The position numbers and the translations under genes are program-made. A stretch of 64,000 nt of DNA from Plicaturopsis crispa FD-325 SS-3 (lineage: Eukaryota > Basidiomycota > Agaricomycetes > Amylocorticiales > Amylocorticiaceae), in NCBI GenBank assembly GCA_000827205.1, contig KN832567.1:844540-908539 (forward strand), in the 5' to 3' direction. The notes beneath the pieces are model-generated. The model saw nothing but the letters and a program-made list of their open reading frames with translations. It searched no databases and was not told the DNA's origin. Positions 4,913 to 57,007 of the stretch are shown piece by piece. Every line of letters starts with the position of its first letter. Position 1 is the first letter of the stretch.

Positions 4913-7900
4913 ATGTCTGTTCCACTGACGTTCCTCCGCGCCCTTCCTAGCCCTCAGGCTGGTGCTTCACTCGGTGACCACCTAGCCCAACAGGTCACGG
5001 ACTCCGGACGGGTTACTACGCTCCTGGACTGCCTGCCATCCACCTCCCAGCCAGCGATCTACGCTGTTGACGCCTCACGACCACCCTTACGCCACGCCAC
5101 CATCCATAATTTCATCTCCCATTTTGTCCTTCCGTCTTCGCCTTCCGCTGCTCCTCTGGGTCCCAATGACAGAGTAATGGTCGTTCTGCCCACCGGCGCT
5201 GCAAACGCGCTTGCTCTTCTCGCCCTCGCCAGCTACCACACCTGTGCACCCGTCAATGCTAGCTGCACGGCATCTGAGCTGCGAGAGGATGCAGAGCGCT
5301 TGCGGGCGAAGGCGGTTTTCACTACGAAGGACACGGAGAATCGGCTCGAGCTACGCAAGCTGCAGGCCGAGCTTGGATGCGAAATTATCTACATGGAAGA
5401 GCGGATATCTGGCGAGGCTGGTCTTTTCGATATGCGCCTCATAGACGAATCGGACGATTCCTCCTCTGACGGCGAACGCGTTTCTCAACGCCAGCCGTCG
5501 CGGCTGCACGGTTTGCGCGATCAGTCGCTTGTCCTTCACACTTCTGGCACGAGTGGGAAGAAGAAGGTTGTACCGTACACCTTACGCTCTTTGATTGTGG
5601 GCACATGTGCTGTAGTTCAGTCGTGGGACATTTCGACGAGCGACATCAACAGTGAGTCTATCAGCCATTGAATGCGATTTCTCCGCTAACTCAGAGTTTA
5701 GTGAACATGATGCCTCTGTTCCACGTTGGTGGCATCGTTCGGAATTTATTCGCGCCCATGATGTCCGGTGGCAGTGTAATTATGTGCGGTGGTTTCGATG
5801 CCACGACGTTCTGGACTCTTGCCCAAGAGCTCGGTGCGACATGGTATGCTTAGCTCGACTCCATTTTTGCGCGTTGTCCAATGGCTAACGAACACGTGAT
5901 TGTACAGGTACTATGCTGCGCCCACGATGCACCATGCTATTTTGGCCTCGCGGCCGGAAGGCGTGGTCCCGTCAAGAGACACCCGTATTCGCATGATCTG
6001 CAATGCCGCCGGCGGTCTTCTACCCACTCTCGCGGTCGAGCTACGCGACACTTTCGGAGGCGCGGTGATTCTACCATCCTATGGGATGACTGAGTAAGTC
6101 CCGAGATCCACCCGTCTATTCAATCCCTCTGTGTCTTGGCGTTTTGTTGACTGAATTGTTACGGAAAATTAGATGCATGCCCATCGCGTCGCCCCCTACC
6201 ACCTACGCGCTCGACCGCCCCGGCTGCTCAGGCCTCGCCTGCGGCCCTTACCTTTCTATTCGGGACCCGTTCAATCTCGAACGCGAGCTCCCCTGCGGCC
6301 AAACCGGCGCCGTTTCGGTCCGTGGCCTTCCCACTTTCGAGGGATATGAGACATCCCCCGATATCAACGTTCCTTTGGACACGTCGACCTTCTCGTCGGA
6401 GGGTTGGTTCGACTCGGGCGACATGGGTTACATGGACGCGGACGGGTACCTCTACATCACCGGTCGTTCCAAGGAAATTATCAACAAGGGCGGAGAGGTC
6501 ATTTCTCCGTTCGAAATCGAGGAAGCGATCATGATTGTGGCGAAGGAGCGAGTCAAGGTGCGTGCTTTGCCGTCCGCAGTTTCTCTTTTCCTGATGCGAT
6601 TATCGATTTAGACTACGCTCGCATTTGCTATCGAACATGATGTGCTTCAGGAAACCATCGGTGTGGTGATCGTTCCCGCACCTGGTACCAAGCGCATCGG
6701 CCTTCCTGCCCTGCATGAGCTGCTCAGGTATGTATAGCACAAATATGCGGAGATTGTGCGGCCCACTGATTGAATCGCACAGAGATCAGCTACACCCGTC
6801 GAAGTGGCCCTTCGCCATCGTGTACATGGACGATGTACCGAAGAATCAAGCTGGGAAGCCCCTCCGCATCAAGCTTGGTTCGCGTCTGGGCATCGGCTGT
6901 CTCTCCGACCAGGTTCCCGCTCTCCAGCGTCACTTCGAAGCGGAGACTCCCGATCGCGAAGTTCCTCTGTCTGCGCCAATCGCCTGCTCGCGCGTTACGC
7001 TAGACCTCCAGCAAGTTCAACACGCCATCTTCAGCGTCTCTGGGATCACGGACGCTGCCATTCGTCTTCGTCACGATGGCTCCCCCGAAGGCTTCGTCTC
7101 GACACACGCTACGTCGACAATGGATGCAGCGGAGGTCAAGTCTCAGCTGTCCAACTGGCTCGACGACTTCTGCGTCCCCGAGCACCTCCACGTCTTCCAC
7201 AAGCCCCTCGTCAGGTCATCGTCTGGCGCTATCGATTTCCACACTATGGAAGAGGAGATCGAACGCGCCAATGTCTCGAGCATGTCCCCTCGGGCTTTGG
7301 TTGTTCGCGACATTGTTGCAGAGCTGCTTCTCACCGAGCCGAGCACCATTAGCGGCGACTCGGATTTCTTCCTCCTCGGCGGCAACTCCCTCCTCCTTGG
7401 TCGTCTGGCGTATTTCATCCGAAAGGAGACCGGGGTCAATGTCAACATGTCCTCGCTGTTCACGAAGAGCACTATCAACGGTATCGCGCGTCTCATTGAC
7501 GATGAGGAGGCCGGTATCAGCTCAAGCCAGGATGACGAGTCGACGCAGCTCGACGACATGAAGAGCGAATTCAGCTTCGAGGCGCCTTCGCTCGCGTACG
7601 GCGATGACCGCGTGAAGAAGAGCCGAGGACAGACCCACCCCGTGGCTCTCATCGTTCAGTCCATCCCGCTCTTGTTCTTCTATCCCTTGAAGGCCGCTTT
7701 AACCTGTACGTCTCGCGCATGTCTTTCTCTGCATATCTTTCTGACATTCATCTAGGGGCTGTTCTGCTCTACCTCCTCTCGGTGCTCACTGTATTCACGA
7801 ACGCGGGCTTCTGGGAGCGTATCGGTAGTCTGCTCTGTGCTATCGTCGTGGCTCGTTTGGCATCCCGTATCATCGCACCCCTCGGCGCAATCCTGTTCAA

Positions 7901-10445
7901 GTGGATCGTCATTGGCCACTACCGCGCCGGCGAGTACAAGCTTTGGAGTGCTTACTATCTGCGGTGGTGGATCGTCAACCAGTCCATTCGCGCTGCCGGA
8001 CGCGGCATCTTCTCCGCTCACCCGTCCCTTGAGAAGCTCTACTACCGTCTCATGGGTGCCAAGATCGGCAAGAACGTCTTCATTGAGAAGAGTGCCAAGC
8101 TCGGCGAGTTCGACCTCCTCAACCTCAAGGACGGTTGCCGCATCGATTCCAACACCCTCGTTCGTGGTTTCTGTGTCGAGCGCGATGGCTACTTCCGCCT
8201 CGGCAAGGTTACGGTTGGCCGTAAGGCGGTCATCAACACTTATACCCAGATTGCGCCTGGTGCTGAAATACCCGACCACACTGTCTTTGGCCCTCACGCA
8301 TCGTCGCACGACCAACCATTCCCTCGGACGTACGCCAACTTCAACCGCACAACGTTCGTCCAGCCGCACTTCATGCTCAAGCTCCTCGTCGGGTGGCCTA
8401 TCATCTTCCTCGTCATCTTTGCTTCATGTATGTGGTATATGGTATTGCGCCTTTGATTACTGTAACTGACGTCGGCATCTTCTTTGACAGATGTTCCATG
8501 GCTCGCTTGTATCTGGCTGATGCTCGACCAGACGGTGGTCCTGATTCCTAACCTCAATTCCCTCGAATCCGTCATCTACTGGTTCGCATCGCCCCAGCGT
8601 GTCATCTGGCATGCGGTCGCTCGTATCGTCAGGGCTGTGCTCACTCCCCTCGTGCAGCTGGTCCTCGGTCTCATTGTCAAGCGCATCCTCGGTCTTAACA
8701 AGGAAGGCCCGATTTCGGAGGCTAGTCAATGGTCGCATCTGCGCCGCTACGTCAACGGTGTCCTCCTCTCCCAAACCGCTCTCAAGCACGCCTTCGATAT
8801 CCTCGGTACACACTACGAGATGACGTCGTGGGTCTGGCGTGCTATGGGCGCTAAGGTTGGACAGCGCGTGTACTGGCCCGGCTCTGGTCTTGACTGCCCG
8901 GACCCCGAACTTCTCGAGATCGGCGACGATGTTGTGTTCGGCTCTCGCTCAGAGCTTTTCACGACAGACAGAATCGGCTCCAAGAAGATCCGCATCGGTT
9001 CAGGATCGATGATTGCAGACCGTTGCGTCCTTCTCCCCGGTGTACGTGTCGGCAGACGCACTGTCATGGGATCCGGTGCTCTTGGTAAACGCGATGGACA
9101 GTATGAAGACAACTCCACCTGGATGGGTAACGGTACGTGGTTCTCAATTATTTTAGTCCGCGCCAAGTACTCAAGGTTATGTTTTCAGCTCGTGGACAGG
9201 CTATCCGCTTCGCTGCTGGCTTCAAGGACGTCGACCCCAACTCCGACACAACGACGCCTTTCGGACGTGCCTTCTACAAGCGCGAGGCGGACTACTTCGT
9301 CTTCCCTTACTTCTTGCTGGTCCTCATCAATATCATCGTAGGCGCTTGCTCTGCTGCCTACTGGTCGATCAGTGCAGTCGCCGCCGCTCAAGTTCTGCGT
9401 CAACTGCAGATCCACCTGCCTCAGCTCCACCTCTTCAAGGACAGCTGGTACCGGTTCGGAACTGTCTACGGTCTTATTGCAGTGTCGTTCGTCATCGTGC
9501 TCAACCTTCAAGCCCTTGGAGCGCTGCTGTGGGTCATCTTGACTAAGTGGATAGTCATCGGTCGCCGACGTGAAGGGCCTTACCACTGGGACAAGAGCAG
9601 CTACTGTCAGCGCTGGCAACTGCACCTTGTTCTATCTCGCCCTCTGCATCGTGGCTACGGAAACGGCGGTGTCCTTGCGCCCCTTACTGGCTCTGCCTAT
9701 ATCGTGTGGTACCTTCGTGCTCTCGGCGCTACCATCGGCAAGAACTGTGCCATATACCCTGGCGGTAAGGCAGGTTTGATGACGGAGCCTGATCTTGTTC
9801 AGGTGAGTATCATATCTAGTTGAAAATCAAAAAAAAGTATGCTCATGCCATGTATTCTAGCTCGGAAACAACGTCTCGTTGGATGCTTGCTCCGTCGTCG
9901 CGCATATCAACTCGAGAGGGAAGTTCGCTTTGAACCCATTGAAGATCGGTGATGGGTACGCCGTCTCTTCCGTCTACCTCTCTAACGGCCGAACTAACTA
10001 GTCACTCGTAGATGTGCCATGAGATCTGGATCGCGACTTCTCTCCGGTGCTTCGATGGAGGATAGCAGTATACTCCTCGAGCACACGCTCCTTCCTTCCG
10101 GGGAGATTGCAGAGTCTGGTGGCACTTACTTCGGATGGCCCGCCCGCAGACAAGATGCCTCTTACGACGAGAAGGACGGCGACGACAAGGTCGACGTCAC
10201 TGGCGCTCGCATCATCTGCCCCCTCTGCCGCCAATTCCCCAAGAGCAGTGTCGTTACTGAGTGTGGTCACCTTTTCTGCGAACCGTAAGTCTATGCCTCT
10301 TCACATGGTTGCCGTATGTTAAACATGTATATTTAGGTGTATCACAAGGGCACTCGGCGACAACAAGCGATGCCCTGTATGCACGGCCGAGGTTGCATCC
10401 AAGCGCCTCTCGCCGATCTACCTCTCCTTCCGCATGAATGTATGA
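4913..10445 (+). CDS. NRPS-like synthetase (adenylation-carrier-membrane/LbH) with C-terminal RING finger
   Basis: Twelve exons: 4913-5651, 5702-5843, 5908-6093, 6173-6557, 6612-6727, 6783-7705, 7756-8427, 8491-9132, 9189-9802, 9861-9955, 10012-10284, 10337-10445; 4896 nt, 1631 aa. ANL adenylation domain: HTSGTSGKKK near residue 209, SYGMTE near 351, GDMGYMDADGY near 437, NQAGKPLR with the catalytic-type Lys near 543. Carrier domain with GGNSL (pantetheine Ser about 724). Then several hydrophobic segments alternate with three left-handed beta-helix blocks starting near 930 (GAKIGKN), 1173 (GAKVGQR) and 1448 (GATIGKN). This order is that of Pls/PosA-type synthetases, which include epsilon-poly-lysine synthetase. 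The PLFHVGG core looks more like an acyl-CoA ligase than an amino-acid A domain, so the substrate is open. No condensation or thioesterase domain is seen. The last 60 residues are a C3HC4 RING (CPLC, CGHLFC, CPVC) followed by SPIYLSF, as in RNF4/Slx8 ubiquitin ligases. A membrane-anchored acyl or aminoacyl polymerase or transferase is the inferred role. Confidence 0.88.
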
Positions 10446-10793
10446 TTCATCCGCACTTGTTGTTTACCTTAACGCTTGCCATTCCCCGAGATGCCCAACT
10501 ATAGACGCAGTATTTTATGTATCATTCAATGGTGTTCATGTTCACACTTCCCCTCTTTTGTTCTGTTGTCGCCCCGGCATAGAGGCAATGCACAAAGTTG
10601 TACTTATGTGTGTAAGCCATAGTAATATTATCGAAGATGTTGAAACATGTTCATTATCGTCGTGCGAGGGTCATCGTTCAAGGTACATGCGCTACATATG
10701 AGTTCTCGAGATCCAGAATAGTGTGCTCTTCAGTCTCCCTGTACCGGTGCAGTATACAGCCGTATGTCGCATCGAAATCCCCGCACGCGAGCC
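10446..10793. other. Intergenic, 3' region of the NRPS-like gene
   Basis: Follows the TGA of the NRPS-like gene. It is relatively T-rich and probably holds its 3' UTR. No gene is seen. Confidence 0.4.
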
Positions 10794-10995
10794 TCACAAT
10801 AACCGCACCATGACTCCATCCTCGTCCCCGGACGCGAAGACATTGATGTCAAAACCATCATCCTTCAGGCGTCGGAGAGGTGCGAGAATGGACACCCACT
10901 CAGGTTCAGGTTCAGATTCAGGCTCGAGGTCAAGCTCCGCCGAGTCGGAATCTGTCTCAGAGGCGTCGATTGAAGAAGTCATCGACTTGTGATTA
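10794..10995 (-). pseudogene. 3' fragment of an F-box gene (duplicated C-terminus)
   Basis: The minus strand encodes an acidic run, then EPEWVSILAPLRRLKD and GFDINVFAS before a stop. This parallels the C-terminus of the complete F-box gene at 11207-13063 (EPDWVSILQPLRRLKD, GFDISIFSG, stop). The DNA is also clearly similar over about 75 bp. No F-box or LRR region accompanies it, so it is a left-over of a tandem duplication or of an unequal exchange with the neighbour. It could be a short expressed ORF, but nothing supports that. Confidence 0.65.
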
Positions 10996-11206: not shown

Positions 11207-13063
11207 CTACAATATCCGCGTGACCGTATTCTGCCTCCCCGAGAAAATGGAGATGTCGAACCCGCTATCCTTCAGTCGTCGGAGAGGCTGGAGAATCGAC
11301 ACCCAGTCAGGCTCGAGGTCGAGGTCCAAGTCGAAAACTATCTCGTCCCTGTCTTCAGGCACGACGACGAAGCGAGCGGAGAAGATGGATATCCGTTCAA
11401 GATACGCCAGCGGTTCTCCGTCTACCCCCGCTCGCGGTACAGTCGGGTCACCCACATCAGCTGGAGGTGCTATACGCGAGGTGATCACCCTTGCCAGGCG
11501 CTCGCAGCGGTTGGCATCGAGGCCCACTAGATGGAGCTGGATGGTGCGCAATTTCGGGAGGACTTGCACCGCATTCGTATACGCCCGGCGGTCTAGTATC
11601 CTCAGGACCTCCGGGTGCGTGAACGTCCACTGTTGGGATGTATGCTCCTCGCCAGAATCGGACTCCCAGTCCGAGTATGTGGAGCTATCGTGCCTAGAAC
11701 CCTGCTCACCAACCTCGAGGTGCTCGATCGAGGGAAAGTTGTCAAAACACTGGGAATATTGGGACAAAGAGGTGGTGAGACGGAACAAGGAAAGTTTCTG
11801 GAGGTGGACACGGGAGTGCTTGCAGAAGTCGATAAAATCCCTCCACGGGAAAAGCGTGTACGTCCCATCTCCGTTCGTGTTTGTGAACTTGAAGGATTGG
11901 AGAGCAGGGAAAGTCATCGTGCGCTGGGTGAATAAATCCCAGCACGCTTCATCCTCATTGGAGTGGCCTATCTCTGCTTCTGCTTTGACGTGCATGTGCC
12001 GGAGTCGTGAGTGCTCCACGGTCTCAGGCGAGTGAATCGAAAAAACCCAAGGACGACCGAGTGATATCACCAGCGTGACGTCCAATATGCCAGTAGAGCG
12101 ACAGATAATCCGGCTGAAGGCTTCGACGCTGCCGCAGTCGCGTATGGTGAGGGACGATAACTGCCCCCACGGGATGTCCAAGTGCTCCGCGACGGTGGAG
12201 CCCGCACAGGAGAGCGAACGTAGCGATGGCGAGTCGCGAAACATCGTCACTGACCCCGCAGAAAGATCCTCTGGGCGAGAGTCGGGGACGTCGATGTCCA
12301 GATGTATGAGGTGCGAGAAACAAGGGATCTTGTCATTAGAGACATCCTCGTGGTGGACCCTGCCTGAAAGATGGAGGGACCGCCAGCGATGTGCACGGGA
12401 CACGATGGTCGCGATAAATGGTTTCAGCTCTTCCGTGGATAACCAACGCAAATAGGGATTTCGCGGGCGGGTAATATTCAATGAGAGCGGGAGACTGCCG
12501 GCGCGTGCAAGCCATTCTTCAACCTTGGATGGAAACAGACTAGTAGTGGCTTTGAAGTATACTGCCGTCCACAATGCAGGCGTTGATAGAGCGATGGCGC
12601 GCCACTTGCGGCAGACGCGCGTGAGGAGAAGCGGTGCCTTATCTGGTTGGGGCACCACTTTCGCTGCCGGAAGGCAGAACGAAAAGATCTCGGAGAGCAG
12701 TTCGGCTGGGAGTCGACGACACGGCGAGACGATGCTTTCGTGTCCTGTTATCGTGCGTTTCAATATGGCCTGCTCGCCCAATAGCCACCTACGGGCGTCA
12801 TCGATGCGAGCCAACTCCGTCTTTACACACGAAAGCCGCGTTTTTGCATCGTCGAGTATTTCACGAGCGCTGTGTTCCTCCATCGGGGACGGACTCTCAT
12901 TATTCATGAGGAGTTTCGGCACTGGTGAGTTGGGGAATGGTGCTGTGGTATGACAGAGGGGAGTGCCACAGGTCCTGCACGCTGGAATCTTGGGCAGGTT
13001 GTGCCCGAATTCAAGCTGTGAGGCAGCACACATGGTTCCAGCATCGACTGCCACCAAGTGCAT
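11207..13063 (-). CDS. F-box protein with C-terminal leucine-rich region
   Basis: A single exon of 618 codons. The N-terminus has a CxxC pair (CRTCGTPLC), then a predicted coiled coil (ILDDAKTRLSCVKTELARID), then the F-box core CRRLPAELLSEIFSFCLP near residue 113 and LTRVCRKWRAIALSTPALW. The remainder is the irregular LRR-like region usual in agaricomycete F-box proteins, ending in an acidic stretch. In known F-box proteins the box binds Skp1 and the C-terminal part selects substrates for SCF ubiquitin ligase; the substrate is unknown. I kept the first Met because the CxxC plus coiled-coil head is part of the family, but an inner Met at 12907 is possible. Its 3' end is duplicated just downstream (10794-10995). 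Confidence 0.85.
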   Translation of the reverse strand: MHLVAVDAGTMCAASQLEFGHNLPKIPACRTCGTPLCHTTAPFPNSPVPKLLMNNESPSPMEEHSAREILDDAKTRLSCVKTELARIDDARRWLLGEQAILKRTITGHESIVSPCRRLPAELLSEIFSFCLPAAKVVPQPDKAPLLLTRVCRKWRAIALSTPALWTAVYFKATTSLFPSKVEEWLARAGSLPLSLNITRPRNPYLRWLSTEELKPFIATIVSRAHRWRSLHLSGRVHHEDVSNDKIPCFSHLIHLDIDVPDSRPEDLSAGSVTMFRDSPSLRSLSCAGSTVAEHLDIPWGQLSSLTIRDCGSVEAFSRIICRSTGILDVTLVISLGRPWVFSIHSPETVEHSRLRHMHVKAEAEIGHSNEDEACWDLFTQRTMTFPALQSFKFTNTNGDGTYTLFPWRDFIDFCKHSRVHLQKLSLFRLTTSLSQYSQCFDNFPSIEHLEVGEQGSRHDSSTYSDWESDSGEEHTSQQWTFTHPEVLRILDRRAYTNAVQVLPKLRTIQLHLVGLDANRCERLARVITSRIAPPADVGDPTVPRAGVDGEPLAYLERISIFSARFVVVPEDRDEIVFDLDLDLEPDWVSILQPLRRLKDSGFDISIFSGRQNTVTRIL

Positions 13064-13454
13064 ACGCTCGTCACTGAGAGGCCCATTTCAAGAAAGAGTG
13101 AACGGCACACACCAGGCCTCATCAGGCAGATACGAGCCCGCGCTGATGGTTTTGAACACGTTCTAAGGGCCACTCTTCGAGACGTATACCGCGTACCGCG
13201 CGTGAGCTGAGCGGTACTACAGTAAGATGTGGAGAAGAACGCACCATCAATTACTCCAGTACTTTTCCAGTAGCCGACCGTGCGCGCTGCCTGCTGCAGC
13301 CTGAGACTCAAGGATGTCCAAGATTGAGAGCCGCGATACTTGTGTAGAACAGGTCCAACGCGAGGGTCAGGACCAAATCTGACCAAATCTACGCGAAAGC
13401 GTTTGCTTACTTCCACCGTCGAATACTCTCATCGTAGACGTCAGACTAAGCAGT
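13064..13454. other. Intergenic between F-box gene and TIR element
   Basis: No coding signal is recognised. It is presumably the F-box promoter. Confidence 0.35.
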
Positions 13455-14545
13455 CTTACAGTCCTTTCGGAAAACCTTGCCCGAGAGCCGATTCAAGAGT
13501 TTGAAAATTCAAATATTCGTTAATTCACCAACATCTGAATCTTAGCCCTTAGCGTCGTTTGCGACGCTCTCTCCCTCTAAATCGGCTCTGTAACTCCTCG
13601 TTTCATCTTGGCTTGCTCTGGGGAAAAGAACGGCGCGAAAAATGCACTTCGAACAGCGTAGGACAAGAGTGACGCGCGCACCGCACCTTGGCGCAGCAAG
13701 ACCATAACTCGCTGTTCTATTCTGCGCCCAAAAGGACTCAAATCATCGGAAGACGGCCTACAGCAGGGATAGGATGGTGGTTCGGAGTTTGCGAGCCTGG
13801 ACTAGCGACTGTGCCGGGTATCCACGGTGCGTTACGGTGTGGCTGGTGGATCCCAGCGTTTCTCGACCGTTAAACTGACGCCTTCCGAGACATGCGTGAT
13901 GCTGCACATCTATTTGACACCGCTGAGTACAGGCCATAGGGGACGTAGGGTGCCTTGTCGCGGGTAAGCATACTCACTCTTGCCTGGTCACACATCTCGC
14001 CAGCAGCTGCTACTTGCTCCTCGTCTCCGAGACTTTTGTACCAATTACTGCGAAAATAATAAGTTTTTATACAAGATTTGCTATGTATCAGACTGCAATG
14101 CCTTCAAATCAAGTTTGGGGAGGTCTGCTACTCGAGGCACAGCGCGCGACGCGCGTGCATGACCGGAAGGACGTACCACGCGATTGAGAGCACCTCCCAC
14201 TAAAATAGCACCGCTAAAATCTCCTGCTACCCCTCCGAACCCTTTGAAAGTCGCTGGGTAACATTCCTGCATCGGACGTAGCACCACTGCGTCGAATGGT
14301 GGAGTCCTGAGTTGGTGTCACTACTTCGTGTCAAATATGCCGCGCAGAGCGTTTTTTTTTCGCGCCGTTCTTGCTCCCAGAGAAAGCCTAGATGAAGTGA
14401 AGAGTCTACAGAGTCGATATCAGAGGGAGAACGCGCTGCAAACAACGCCAGGAGCTACCAACTAGACGCCATTGAATTTCTGAATATTTGAATTTTCAAA
14501 GTCTTGAATCGGCTCTCGGGCAAGGTTTTCCGAAAGGACTGCAAG
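13455..14545. mobile_element. Non-autonomous DNA transposon-like element with about 180 bp inverted termini
   Basis: The left end from 13459 and the reverse complement of the right end up to 14541 are identical for the first 39 bases (they begin CAGTCCTTTCGGAAAACC). They stay clearly alignable for about 180 bases, through TTTGAAAATTCAAATATTC and up to AGAACGGCGCGAAAAA near 13635 and 14365. A CTT just outside the core is also shared (13455, 14545). The interior of about 720 bp has no transposase-like ORF. Long TIRs resemble Mutator-like or foldback elements, but no clean target-site duplication could be found: the 9-bp flanks agree at only five positions. I cannot assign a superfamily. It sits between an F-box gene and the H1-like gene. 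Confidence 0.8.
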
Positions 14546-14985
14546 TACTACATGCCAACACCATTTAGCTTGACCAATACATATCGTTGAGGTCCCTCAA
14601 ACCAACTCGTGCATAGTCATGATTATTCATATCAACACATGAAAATTGTAGCGCAAGTCTAGCAGCATAAAAAACGATAGATAGAGGAAAAAACACCCTG
14701 TTCACAATCGTATGTACGCGAACTGACGACACACACACACAAGACACGGGCACGGGAGAAACAAGCAAAAAAACGACACGAGCAGGCGGGGCGAAAACGT
14801 GAAGCAAACGCGACGACGGGAAGCAAGAGCGACGGAAGGGAAGGAACAGACAGACACAGGGCATACACATAGCAGGCAGCAGCAGCGGACGATGGGACGA
14901 CGACGGACAAGATGGATGGGTGATCGGATATGTGCATGGCGGGCGGATAAGAGGGATTTACGCATACACAGTGGGGCAGCGCGAT
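14546..14985. other. Intergenic, 3' side of the H1-like gene
   Basis: Contains a short CA run near 14730 and purine-rich sequence. It probably includes the 3' UTR of the minus-strand gene upstream. No ORF with support. Confidence 0.35.
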
Positions 14986-15743
14986 TTATGCCTGCAAAAC
15001 AGCGAAGATGAAAAATTTGAACCGAGTGAGACAATATAAAAAAGAGACATACCGCCGCTTCGGCCTCAGCCTCAGCCTCCGGCTCCTCCGCGATGGTAGG
15101 CTCAACTGCTGCAGACGATTCACCTGCCGCAGCCGGCTCATCCGCCTGTAAAATCCGCAAACGTATTAATAAGCATGTCAGGATAATGCGAGATGAAGTG
15201 AAGCATACCTTGGATGCAGGCTTCTTCGAGCCTGCGCGCGAGGCCGGTTTCTTGGAGGCAGTGGAGGTGGGCTTGGACGCGGCGGAGGGCGGCTTGGCAG
15301 ATGCGCGCGATGCGGGCTTAGCAGACGCTCGCGATGCGGGTTTGGCAGAAGCCTTGGACGCGGGCTTCGACGACGCGGCGGCTTTGGACGCCGGTTTGGC
15401 CTTGGATGCGGGCTTGGACGCAGCAGCAGCCTTGGAGGCAGGCTTTGCCTAAGACAGAGGCCATATGAGACATAATACGGGTTGATTCTTTATCGTCCAC
15501 GACACGCACCTTCTTGGACGCAGGTTTTTCTGCGGGCTCCTCGTCGTCGTCGGCCTTGCGCTTCTTGCCGCGACTCTTCGGTTTCTCTGCCTCGTCTTTC
15601 TCCGCCTTGTCCTTCTTGGGCGCGCGGGGCTTTGCTGGGGCCTTCTTCACGGGCTCAGGCTTGGGCTGGGGGAGCTCCTTGATACGCGAGGAGCGACGCG
15701 GGGCAGCATCTGTAGCAGACGCCGAGGCAGCTTTGGGCGGCAT
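14986..15743 (-). CDS. Basic Lys/Ala/Pro-rich nuclear protein, histone-H1-tail-like
   Basis: Four exons on the minus strand: 15743-15510, 15448-15209, 15145-15053 and a last coding exon of only six bases, 14991-14986; 190 aa. It starts MPPKAASAS, followed by RRSSRIKELPQ and a Lys/Glu-rich segment. Exon 2 is a run of about a dozen degenerate KPASKA/KPASRA units, and exon 3 is acidic (EAEAEAEAA). There is no winged-helix domain, so it is not a true histone H1. Composition predicts a disordered, nuclear, DNA- or chromatin-binding protein. Its first exon closely resembles that of the peroxiredoxin gene at 39796-40803, including the KK|AK splice junction. If the last intron is retained the ORF would run on with unlike sequence, so I prefer the spliced stop. 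Confidence 0.7.
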
Positions 15744-31099: not shown

Positions 31100-31968
31100 C
31101 TAATTCAGTAACGCTCCTCCATCGACTACCGCGTACGTTCCCGTCACAAATCCTGCCCTCATGAAATAGAGGAACGCCTCCGTAGTGTCCTCCACCTCGC
31201 CGACCCTCTTCACCAGAGTCTTCTCCGCGAAATCCGACAAGATCTTCTCTCTCACCGCCTCTGGGAATGGATTCCACAGCTCTGTGCGAATTGCGCCCGC
31301 TTCGACGATGTTAACGCGGACGGGTGCTAAGTCGACCGCAAGGCCCCTCGTGAGGGTCTCGTTTGCTCCCGCGGCCGCGTTGGTCACAGCCCATCCCTTT
31401 GGAGGTCGCTGCACGTACATGCCGCCAGTGAGCGTGATGCTTCCCTGCTGGCTTATGTACGGGGATGCAACTTTGGCCACAGAGACGCCTCCCCAGAACC
31501 GGACGTTGAACACGTCCTTCAGGCCTTCTACAGGGGTGTCATGGAGGCCTCTGACGGCAAGCGCGTCTACAAGAATCGCGCAAGTCGTTAATTACACGAA
31601 ACGAGATGAAGAGGAAGATAACGAACCTCCAGCGGTATATACGAGGTGATCAAATTTTCCCACTTTGCTGAATAGTTTTCCCACGTTCACCTCGTCCAAA
31701 CCTTCTAGCTGAATGCCCTCCACGGTTCCGCCGTTCGTAGGCGCAGCCTTTGCACGTGCAACCGCGTCGGATACTTTCTGGCTGTTGGACGACGAGATGA
31801 TGACATGTGCGCCCAATGAATATACCGCCTGTGCGACTCCAAACCCGATACCTATCATTTAGACATGGTGAGTCGACTGTTCAATGGCATGCACGCATAA
31901 TGCGGACCTGATGAACCGCCTATGACTACGATTTTTCTGCCGAATAGTTTGTCTTGAGATGTAGCCAT
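31100..31968 (-). CDS. Atypical short-chain dehydrogenase (SDR), tandem copy 1
   Basis: Three exons: 31968-31908, 31851-31627, 31566-31100; 250 aa. Rossmann start GGSSGIGFG, then FDHLVYTAGG in the place of the NNAG motif. Next comes GSITLTGG, and then RPPKGWAVTNAAAG where classical SDRs carry the YxxxK dyad; neither Tyr nor Lys is there. The C-terminal part VRVNIVEAGAIRTELW and VTGTYAVVDGGALL is typical of SDRs. It probably binds NAD(P)(H), but the chemistry is uncertain. First of three same-strand copies with identical intron positions (61 nt first exon, 467 nt last exon). Confidence 0.88.
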
Positions 31969-32667: not shown

Positions 32668-33532
32668 TCAGGCCAGCAGAAGCCCACCGTCCACGATAGC
32701 ATGCGTGCCCGTGACGAAATCCGCCCTCAGCAAGTACAGGAATGTCTCCACCACATCATCTACCTCACCGACCCGCTTCGCAAGCGACTTCCCCGCAAAG
32801 TTCGCCAATATCCCCTCGCGCGTCGCTGGGTCGAATTGACCCCATCGCTCCGTGCGTACCGCGCCGGGCTCGACGACGTTCACGCGGATGGGCGCAAAGT
32901 CTACCGCGAGGCCGCGCGCGAGCGTCTCGAGGGCGCCCGCGCCCGCGGTCACGACAGCCCAGTTCTTCGGCGGGCGTGTGCAGTACATGCCGCCCGTGAA
33001 GGTGATGCTGCCCTGTTGGCTGAGGTGTGGGTGCGCGTATTTGGCAGCACTCAGGGCGCCCCAGAATCCGACCTCGAATATAGGTCGCAGGTTCGCTAGC
33101 GGTGTCTCGAGGACGGGGAGAACATCCAATGCGCCTGGAGATGCACGGTTTCATGAGTGGTTAGGTATGGATCAAATAGTGCGGAGATGATTACCGCCGG
33201 CAGTGTATACGAGGTGATCGAACTTCCCGACTTTTTCGAAAAATGCCTTCATGTTGACTTCGTCTAGGCCCTCCAGCTGGATGCCCTTCACGGTGCCGCC
33301 ACTGCTTGATGGTGCGGCAGAAATGCGTTGAACGGCATTACTGACATTCGTCGCGTTTGAAGACGAGACGATGACATGCGCGCCCAGAGAGTACAGCGTC
33401 TTCGCGAGGCCAAATCCCATTCCTACAAAGGGTCAATACCTCGCCCATCTACACTTTGAGAAGGTACGCACCGGACGAGCCGCCAATGATGACGGCTTTC
33501 TTCCCAGCGAGCTTGTCTTGTGTCGCAGACAT
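32668..33532 (-). CDS. Atypical short-chain dehydrogenase (SDR), tandem copy 2
   Basis: Three exons: 33532-33472, 33422-33195, 33134-32668; 251 aa. It begins MSATQDKLAGKKAVIIGGSS and keeps GMGFG and FDHLVYTAGG. It continues GSITFTGGMY and RPPKNWAVVTAGAG, again without the YxxxK pair, then IRVNVVEPGAVRTERW and VTGTHAIVDGGLLL. Exon 3 has exactly the length of copies 1 and 3. Reading frames are intact, so it is probably functional. Confidence 0.87.
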
Positions 33533-34061: not shown

Positions 34062-34931
34062 TTAAGAGAGCAGAGAGCCTCCATCAACAACGGCGTTGGT
34101 GCCCGTCACGAAGTCTGCCTTCATGAGGTAGATGAACGTCTCCGCCGTATCCTCAACCTCGCCCACCCTTCCCAGCAGGGTCCTCTCCGCGTACTGCGCG
34201 AACGCCGTGTCCCGCACCTCGTCCGGCAGCGCACCCCACATCTCCGTGCGCGTCGCACCCGGCTCGACGAGGTTTACGCGGATCGGCGCGAGGTCGACGG
34301 CGAGCCCGCGCGCGAGCGGCTGCAGCGCACCGGCGCCCGCGGCGACGATGCTCCAGCCCTTCGCAGGGCGGTGCGCGGAAGTGCCGCCAGTGAGGGTGAT
34401 GCTTCCCTGCGGGCTCAGGTGCGGGTGCGCGGCCTTGACGGTGGCGACTACGCCCCAGAGACGAACCTCCCACTGCGCCTTAAGCAGCTCTATGGGTGTC
34501 TCCAGGAACGGCCGGATGGCGAGCGCATCTGGTAGTTGTGGCCAGTGGGTTAGCGTCGATGCTGCTGCTGTGGAGTAGAAGACGTACCTCCGGCAGTGTA
34601 GATGAGGTGGTCAAATGCCCCAACTTTGTCGAAGAAGGCTTTGAGGTTGGCCTCGTCAAGACCGCCTAGCTGGATCCCTTCTACGGTGCCGCTCCCCGCA
34701 GCAACGAAAGGCTGGAGACGCTGAACGGCATCATCAACTCGGGACTTGTTCGAGGAGGATATGACCACACGGGCTCCCAATGGAAGGACCGCTTTCGCGA
34801 CGCCGAATCCCATGCCTAAATGCAACGCAGTCAGCTCTAGTGTATGCATATGAGCATAGGCGTGACTGACCTGAGGAGCCCCCTATAATAACGATTTTCT
34901 TTCCGAACAGCTTGTCCTGCGTTGTAGCCAT
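34062..34931 (-). CDS. Atypical short-chain dehydrogenase (SDR), tandem copy 3
   Basis: Three exons: 34931-34871, 34815-34588, 34528-34062; 251 aa. It begins MATTQDKLFGKKIVIIGGSS, with GMGFGVAKAV, FDHLIYTAGG, GSITLTGGTS and RPAKGWSIVAAGAG. The YxxxK dyad is absent as in the other copies. It ends VTGTNAVVDGGSLLS. Head-to-tail orientation and identical intron phases show that copies 1-3 arose by tandem duplication. Confidence 0.87.
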
Positions 34932-44300: not shown

Positions 44301-44991
44301 TTCAATTTCTGGATGATTCTAAGATATCGTTCACAACTAGAGTGGGCATAGTCCGACTTACATGATCGTCGAGGTCACACTCCCGGAACACCAGCTTGCG
44401 TAGGCCCCATTCGATGGTAAACACATCGGACAGGATAGACGCGGAGGCGTCTGTCAGCTGCACTCCAGATAGATCCACCGTGCGCGGATTAGTGCCCGCT
44501 GCATGCTAGAATGCGCGTTAATTGAAGGATTGGCAATTTCATATGGAACACACCTTGAAAGCCGCAGTTATTGCAGGATCTGGTCGCTCGTCGCAGCCCG
44601 CACAACATTCACGATAAAAGGACTCGACCTTGTCGAGTGTCCACCACTCCTCGGTCTCGTTGACGCTGATCGAATTTCCTCTGACCACCCGTCTCCGTCG
44701 CTCTGCCTCCCGGTCGTCTATTGCCTTCTTCTCGTCACGCAAGTTCGGTGTCGACGGTGGGTTCAACGACGATATCGGATACACTGTCGCGATTTGCGGC
44801 AGAATGAAGTGCGCGCGCTTGAGCGGTTTGCTCTCATCACTGGACGGAGGGGGTTGTGTCGGGAGGATCCTGATGAACCGCGAGAACAGAGATTGTTGTG
44901 CCGGCGGAGGGCGCTTCAGAATCGATTTCCCGGGAATTGGTATTGTCACAGCAGAGGAGGACGGCGAACCAGAGGAGGAGGAGGATGCCAT
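41340..44991 (-). CDS. PPP1R37-like leucine-rich-repeat protein (candidate PP1 regulator)
   Basis: Eleven exons: 44991-44554, 44505-44362, 44308-44189, 44138-43982, 43931-43300, 43245-43132, 43077-43009, 42949-42521, 42470-41911, 41858-41741, 41684-41340; 1041 aa. The N-terminus carries SILK (residues 23-26) and KRAHF (58-62). Human PPP1R37 has KRVTF in this region; SILK and RVxF are protein phosphatase 1 docking motifs, but here the Val is Ala. RNI-type LRRs follow (LQFLDLSQNPLD, LRNISLRHNKI, LRTLDLRGNDL, LKVLNLSENKLD). They are interrupted by an insert of about 170 residues rich in Ser and Pro. The last repeat (AIALAEFLPESTSLLHLDLTLN, MALSSGLKANHTMRCLDLN) matches human PPP1R37 closely. The C-terminal 350 residues are acidic, Pro/Ser-rich and disordered. 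The role is inferred: targeting or inhibiting PP1. Confidence 0.82.
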
Positions 44992-45105
44992 GAAAAGTCT
45001 ACGTTTATGTTACCATTTACTGTGGAAAGTGGAAAGTTACATGTGCATTGCGGTCAAGTTCGCGGTCGCGCTGTGCCGGTGGCGTTGTTCGCGTCCTCGT
45101 TTCTC
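44903..45105. repeat. Source copy of a roughly 200-bp duplication (promoter and first codons of the PPP1R37-like gene)
   Basis: This segment covers the first about 29 codons and roughly 110 bp upstream of the PPP1R37-like gene. It recurs in the same orientation at 46564-46764 with only small differences (ACGTTTATG versus ACGCCATG, and a four-base insert near 46733). Weaker similarity continues outward (GACAACTCTGTGCTCGAA near 45158 versus GACAACTGCGCTCGAA near 46815). Confidence 0.9.
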
Positions 45106-46563: not shown

Positions 46564-46764
46564 GGCGGAGGGCGCTTCAGAATCGATTTCCCGGGAATTG
46601 GTATTGTCACAGCAGAGGAGGACGGCGAACCAGAGGAGGAGGAGGATGCCATGAAAAGTCTACGCCATGTTACCATTTACTGTGGAAAGTGGAAAGTTAC
46701 ATGTGCATTGCGGTTAAGTTCGCGGTCGCGCTCAGCGTGCCGGTGGCGTTGTTCGCGTCCTCGC
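46564..46764. repeat. Second copy of the PPP1R37-like promoter and first codons
   Basis: Near-identical to 44903-45105. On the minus strand it retains the start codon (46651) and the first 30 codons, including SILK, and then stops at once, so it encodes at most a 30-residue peptide. It lies upstream of the small minus-strand gene at 45978-46397, as a ready-made promoter would. Confidence 0.88.
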
Positions 46765-56125: not shown

Positions 56126-57007
56126 ATGGCTACCACACCGGACAAGCTCGCTGGGAAAAAAATCGTCGTGATTGGGGGATCGTCAGGTTAGTGTCTCTCG
56201 ATGAAGGGATTGGTTGCGCACTCACTGTGATTTGATAGGCATAGGATTCGGTGTAGCGAAAGCGGCGTACGCCCTGGGCGCTCACGTCACGATCTCGTCT
56301 TCGAACATTCAGAAGATTGAGGCCGCCGTCGGGCGTGCGAGCAGCGTGCCGTCGAGTGGTGGTACCGTGCAGGGCGTTCAGCTGCAAGGCCTCGACGAAG
56401 CTAGTCTGAGCGCACTCTTCACTAAGGTTGGAAAATTTGATCACCTCATATACACTGCCGCAGGTTCGCACTTGCCTCTTCCCTCCCATAACAGCCTAAT
56501 GACGGTGATTGATTGGTTGAATCCGCGGTCACAGATTGGGGATCATTGCCCAACCTTTTCGAAACGCCTGTGGAAAAGATGAAAGACCTCTTCAACGTCC
56601 GATTTTGGGGCGCCATCGCCGCTGTGAAGACTGCACACCCGTTCTTGAGCCAGAGCGGTAGCATCACCCTGACGGGCGGCAGCGTCGTGACGCGCCCGCC
56701 CAAAGGCTTCGGCATCACGGTGTCCTGTTCCGGTGCCCTCGAGACACTGACACGTGGCCTGGCCGTGGATCTCGCGCCCATCCGCGTCAACGTCGTGGAA
56801 GCTGGTGCGATCCGCACAGAGATGTGGGATAACATGCCAGATGGTGTGCTAGAGAAACTTGCCGGGGAATGGGCCAACAAGTCGCTGGTGAAGCGGATGG
56901 GTGAGGTGGAGGATACTACGGAGACGTATCTTTATTTGATGAAGGCGGATTTTGTGACGGGGACGAACGCGGTTGTTGACGGAGGGAGTTTGCTGTATAC
57001 CGCTTAG
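56126..57007 (+). CDS. Atypical short-chain dehydrogenase (SDR), dispersed copy 4
   Basis: Three exons: 56126-56186, 56239-56463, 56535-57007; 252 aa. It begins MATTPDKLAGKKIVVIGGSS, with GIGFGVAKAAYALGAH, FDHLIYTAAG, GSITLTGGSVVTRPPK and GFGITVSCSGALETL (no YxxxK). It ends VVDGGSLLYTA. First exon length (61 nt) and both intron positions equal those of the tandem copies at 31-35 kb, about 21 kb away, but it is on the opposite strand. The last exon is six bases longer than in the others. Confidence 0.88.

Follow-up and report, generated by a model that had tools for sequence, protein, structure and literature searches.

Can a membrane-bound biosynthetic synthetase carry a RING finger of its own in the same polypeptide, and what would the RING do there? 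The question is raised by a gene of the fungus Plicaturopsis crispa, found in a 64,000-nucleotide stretch of contig KN832567.1 (the window, whose numbering is used throughout). The degradation of metabolic enzymes is normally the task of separate ligases, and we know of no adenylation/carrier enzyme that has been described with an E3. None of the titles and abstract openings listed by our searches of the open-access literature mentions such a fusion, which may nonetheless be present in subscription papers or annotation databases as a domain arrangement without a name. If our reading is true, a single gene would encode both a synthetase and its RING in one compact feedback device, and could serve as a natural model for engineered self-limiting pathways.

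Judging from the DNA, the chimeric membrane synthetase and its RING appear to be encoded by one gene, at positions 4913 to 10445 of the plus strand. Its 12 exons, which mark the window as eukaryotic in character, encode 1631 amino acids followed by a single terminal stop, in agreement with the length implied by a previous sequence-only reading of this DNA. Exon borders were picked by eye, using reading frames and splice signals, and were then verified by translation; the 11 introns are all of the GT...AG type and measure 50 to 79 nt. The protein contains, in this order, an acyl-CoA-ligase-type adenylation domain, a degenerate second lid, a carrier domain, a module with six transmembrane (TM) candidates and three beta-helix segments, and the RING.

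The junction that matters lies in exon 11 (10012 to 10284), which is open throughout in the frame of the synthetase. It encodes the last beta-helix turns, ending in GTYFGWPA (residues 1542 to 1549, last nucleotide 10144), then a charged linker of 24 amino acids devoid of methionine (RRQDASYDEKDGDDKVDVTGARII, 10145 to 10216), and the first five of the eight zinc ligands of the RING, four Cys and one His, carried by CPLC (10217 to 10228) and CGHLFC (10262 to 10279). Intron 11 (10285 to 10336, 52 nt, GTAAGT...TAG) is located inside the RING and splits the Pro codon before the sixth ligand, Cys6. Exon 12 (10337 to 10445) supplies ligands 6 to 8, the tail TAEVASKRLSPIYLSFRMNV, which aligns with KRYHPIYI of RNF4, and the stop codon; CITRALG, which includes Cys6, is found at 10338 to 10358, CPVC at 10371 to 10382 and SPIYLSF at 10410 to 10430. 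The sequence-only reading had placed the last beta-helix turns and the first half of the RING in exon 11, had assigned CPVC and SPIYLSF to the next exon, and had proposed an in-frame fusion within one gene. The exon model agrees on each point, a single open frame running through exon 11 and across a canonical splice into exon 12.

Could the RING nevertheless belong to a separate gene? The last beta-helix residue and the first RING Cys are 72 nt apart, with no stop and no in-frame ATG between them. In exon 11, Met codons in frame occur at 10019 and 10055 only, both inside the beta-helix; a separate RING protein would thus be without a start of its own, and a separate RING gene is ruled out. Taking the gene's own splice sites as a model, we found no GT donor above 2 bits in 10047 to 10283 that would be able to splice the RING away. 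Intron 11 itself scores 6.85 bits at its donor and 8.15 bits at its acceptor (leave-one-out), the latter being the best of the eleven acceptors. A donor-like site of 7.08 bits is present at 10376, within exon 12, together with weak candidate acceptors at 10511 (3.19 bits) and 10637 (4.78 bits). Splicing from 10376 to either acceptor would break the last zinc pair, and an isoform with a broken RING is therefore conceivable. By codon statistics trained on residues 1 to 1500, the spliced tail obtains 0.28 in the gene's frame; its other two forward frames give -0.41 and -0.31, and its best antisense frame 0.096. Flanking segments taken as non-coding, part of which also served to set the background, score at most 0.003, and segments of the training part, which belong to the training set, have a mean of 0.41 (sd 0.14, minimum 0.10). 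Exon 12 alone scores 0.065 in frame versus -0.078 and -0.64, and is too short to decide.

What kind of synthetase precedes the RING? The sequence-only reading had called it a Pls/PosA-type NRPS-like synthetase, a label that fits the carrier, membrane and beta-helix half (TIGR02353, E 1.3e-50) and does not fit the adenylation half, which resembles acyl-CoA ligases, with oxalyl-CoA synthetases as closest solved relatives and FHVGG at core A4. The carrier (T) domain (residues 697 to 761, 7303 to 7497; PF00550, E 1.1e-10) has a GGNSL that aligns with LGGHS, the corresponding motif in four bacterial Pls. The module that follows (7654 to 10144, up to the final GTYFGWPA) was identified from TIGR02353, TM peaks, Hexapep and tblastn. 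TIGR02353 matches it in three stretches at 172.5 bits, below the family cut-off of 423.1, and Hexapep occurs in three segments, the third of which is below the Pfam cut-off. Between the carrier and the last beta-helix, hydrophobic peaks come in three pairs (residues 827-845 and 853-871, 1046-1064 and 1100-1118, 1305-1323 and 1364-1382); a seventh, at 88-106, lies inside the adenylation domain and was set aside. This is the Pls/PosA layout, in which three TM pairs and three C (beta-helix) domains come after the carrier. The fungal protein is colinear with the four bacterial members: the A and T domains lead, and TM pairs then alternate with the three C domains, arranged in tandem. Six TM segments are described for bacterial Pls, and the A, T, TM/C architecture is shared by the fungal Epls of Epichloe festucae (PMC7179176). 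Synthetases of epsilon-poly-lysine (NAPAA) are known from fungi (PMC7179176, PMC10989895), and the yeasts Aureobasidium and Papiliotrema figure in a list of NAPAA clusters (PMC12866564). Identity with the four bacterial members, aligned over their length, is only 21 to 25% in the membrane half. In the last beta-helix segment, the invariant His of the bacterial QTHLFEDR motif aligns with a His of the fungal protein, and the acidic pair that comes next does not align, so that any transferase chemistry there would be uncertain.

The adenylation domain (residues 82 to 554, 5156 to 6876) is recognised by PF00501 over residues 82 to 414 (E 1.2e-39). A P-loop-type motif and the lid Lys region both align, and the closest solved relatives found by phmmer are oxalyl-CoA synthetases/oxalate-CoA ligases (6qjz, E 2.9e-56 over residues 78 to 552; 5ie0, E 2.2e-55; 8aff, E 1.3e-47), after which come malonyl-CoA ligases. 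The likeness to oxalyl-CoA synthetases covers the whole ligase core (residues 56 to 552, E 2.9e-56 to 1.3e-47); in the fungal protein, carrier, membrane module and RING come after this core. The best NCBIfam match of the adenylation half, FadD7 fatty acid-CoA ligase, reaches 212 bits for a cut-off of 650, and is one of many sub-cut-off matches. The RSCSASL stretch of the solved oxalyl-CoA synthetases, which we take to be their oxalate-binding residues, is found opposite CNAAGGL. At core A4, the fungal FHVGG faces FD in four out of four aligned bacterial Pls; as FDxS presumably marks an adenylation domain of the amino-acid type, the protein lacks this feature of a Pls/PosA synthetase. By a crude pattern, FD is present in only 42 of 84 bacterial frames, and the mark, as defined by that pattern, is not universal.

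Another difference from bacterial Pls is a second, degenerate adenylation lid (residues 586 to 679, 6970 to 7251), which has no Pfam match and was recognised as Pls-like by hhalign and by alignment with the four bacterial Pls. Compared with 49 bacterial lids (of the 84, the other 35 did not fit a simple pattern and were left out), it obtains a score of 33.0 and a probability of 74, versus 27.5 and 45 for the first lid; none of five shuffled controls scored above 13.3, and none of four regions elsewhere in the protein above 14.9. The position of the conserved lid Lys is occupied by Ala (SGAIDF). We read the second lid as what is left of a Pls adenylation domain that the protein originally had, and whose core would have been replaced. 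The enzyme is a chimera of three parts and is unlikely to be a poly-amino-acid synthetase. It looks like a record of module exchange, in which an oxalyl-CoA-synthetase-type ligase has come to stand before a Pls-type lid remnant, and a RING has been added at the far end.

Does the RING belong natively to the Pls family? A tblastn search with the C-terminal 875 amino acids matched 64 plasmid records. Among the 25 matches listed, 9 are annotated as Pls/PosA family, and 9 stop at query positions 793-794, where GTYFGWPA is completed (residues 1549-1550); the remainder stop at positions ranging from 749 to 838. We then compared the C-termini of 84 bacterial relatives, made up of the best 80 of 575 confirmed relatives from a genome scan, for which an alignment of four Pls from plasmid records was the query, and 4 of the 64 plasmid records. 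The end motif GE...[WFY]xGxP is present in 83 of these 84 relatives, with a single exception, and the frame stops 3 to 36 amino acids later (median 5). None of the 84 frames contains a RING pattern. The RING is therefore placed past the point at which members of the bacterial family natively stop: the fungal protein runs on for 83 amino acids beyond the end motif, into the RING. For the bacterial members examined, a RING native to the Pls family is thereby excluded. The RING tail gave no tblastn match in plasmid and phage sequences, and one scan of viral contigs with six peptide patterns found no relatives. Inside the window, a search for a second NRPS or RING copy retrieved nothing besides the gene itself, all other RING matches being at chance level (E 1.7 or worse).

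The RING (residues 1574 to 1611, 10217 to 10382 with intron 11 included) is complete and of the C3HC4 type, its eight zinc ligands being spaced C-x2-C-x11-C-x1-H-x2-C-x2-C-x10-C-x2-C. On the full protein, PF13923 scores 39.9 bits (cut-off 27) and PF00097 34.7 bits; five Pfam RING models exceed their cut-off, and a sixth, PF13445, falls below. Pfam scores, and the absence of the RING pattern from all of 200,000 shuffles of the 82-amino-acid tail, rule out a chance RING. With RING E3s of the PDB also among the matches, its identification as a RING of the E3 type seems to us well supported.

The more specific label of an RNF4/Slx8-like RING, given by the sequence-only reading, is compatible with the C3HC4 RING and with the C-terminal KR-x-x-PIY[IL] tail, in which SPIYL aligns with HPIYI of RNF4, but the comparisons do not single out RNF4/Slx8 as its group. 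The aromatic C-terminal tail of the RNF4 type has a role in dimers; the alignment with BRE1A reaches the same tail. Whole-sequence scores are alike for the single-RING chains of the PDB (COP1, 40.1 bits; RNF4, 39.5; BRE1A, 37.8; RING2, 37.7). An RNF4 chain, 4ap4, does occupy the top row, with an E-value that is due to two RINGs in one chain, and Slx8 is not named among the 60 of 138 PDB matches listed. Loop 1 has 11 residues here and is longer in RNF4 (57 query residues versus 64 of chain 2xeu); with a shorter query, the RNF4 alignments begin beyond loop 1. Across the 1631 residues, three types of SUMO-interaction motif gave no match. A looser pattern for the hydrophobic core gave six, at residues 88, 475, 500, 502, 1070 and 1315, none of them in the linker or the RING. 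In addition, the residue after the last ligand, Cys8, is Thr1612, and the alignment has Arg at this position in RNF4. An identity as SUMO-targeted ligase is not supported by these comparisons. The residue following the last zinc ligand is termed the linchpin in PMC7667886.

How might the two halves work together? We lean, tentatively and with a little less than even confidence, towards a six-helix membrane synthetase whose cytosolic RING recruits an E2 for the regulated turnover of the enzyme itself. What the adenylation domain would activate and load on the carrier is a small carboxylic acid, probably one other than an amino acid, and the Pls-type membrane and beta-helix module would present or transfer the acyl group. 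With six spans, an even number, the adenylation and carrier domains and the C-terminal RING would all face one side of the membrane; this side would be the cytosol, as ATP and E2s are needed there. Such a topology is deduced from the parity of the hydrophobic peaks, the charge of the flanks not being decisive. The RING would then recruit an E2, and the synthetase, or close neighbours, would be ubiquitinated, so that the enzyme would contain a switch for its own turnover, after the manner of ER-associated degradation. Coupling of synthesis to ubiquitin, as the sequence-only reading proposed, seems to us reasonable. As a model of how the protein could work, we have in mind Hrd1 and Doa10, multispanning membrane proteins with a cytosolic RING; the difference is that the membrane part here is a biosynthetic module. 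A bolder version, on which we place distinctly less weight, makes the biosynthetic enzyme its own E3 in a regulatory sense: the RING would be gated by how far the carrier is loaded, or by the membrane module, so that the synthetase would measure its output and set its own half-life.

Should the ubiquitinated proteins be others, the membrane synthetase half would serve as an anchor or as a sensor, with carrier load or substrate level as the signal, and the RING as an E3 would remove partner enzymes, transporters or misfolded membrane proteins. The domain arrangement would permit action on such clients, and the membrane RING E3s Hrd1 and Doa10, which have many clients, offer a precedent. However, no client-binding region was noticed beyond the recognised domains, and the linker before the RING is only 24 amino acids long; we consider this scenario unlikely. 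To the same low degree we would credit a RING devoid of E3 function, which would be a tail, stabilised by zinc, through which the synthetase dimerises or docks. BMI-1, which acts as a partner RING and is itself little active, is also among the PDB matches, and the linchpin Thr1612 points in the same direction, as a Thr is expected to be weaker than an Arg. In contrast, the eight ligands are intact and the tail aligns with that of RNF4; moreover, linchpins other than Arg are common, being found in at least half of human and yeast RINGs according to PMC7667886, where the ER ligase Doa10 is described as having a His linchpin and using Ubc6 for priming. As for a fusion that is accidental to the strain, is due to faulty assembly or is never transcribed, in which a missing stop or start makes two neighbouring genes look joined, the fusion is known here from the DNA of one strain alone and a duplicated F-box fragment just downstream (10845-10911 and 11252-11319) indicates that the region has been rearranged, but the mere 72 nt without in-frame ATG from beta-helix to RING, and codon statistics and splice signals that carry on across the junction (exon 12 alone being too short to decide), make this quite improbable.

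A few other features of the window were recorded. The duplicated F-box fragment belongs to the 3' part of the F-box gene that neighbours the RING gene (minus strand, 11210 to 13087); the duplication has 81% identity over 68 nt and lies immediately downstream of the RING gene. A minus-strand frame (14705 to 15448), which has no Pfam match, starts with low-complexity KPASKA/KPASRASA repeats. Four related copies with 64 to 71% DNA identity are found at 31116-31857, 32704-33425, 34078-34692 and 56233-56985, three of them in tandem and one about 21 kb away on the opposite strand; three have short-chain dehydrogenase Pfam matches, and the fourth is related by DNA similarity only. The two arms of an inverted repeat (13455-13642 and 14356-14545), separated by about 700 nt, have 82% identity over 190 nt; this may be a small mobile element. 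Finally, a direct repeat of about 200 nt with 96% identity (44903-45099 and 46564-46763) may reflect a recent duplication or an element.
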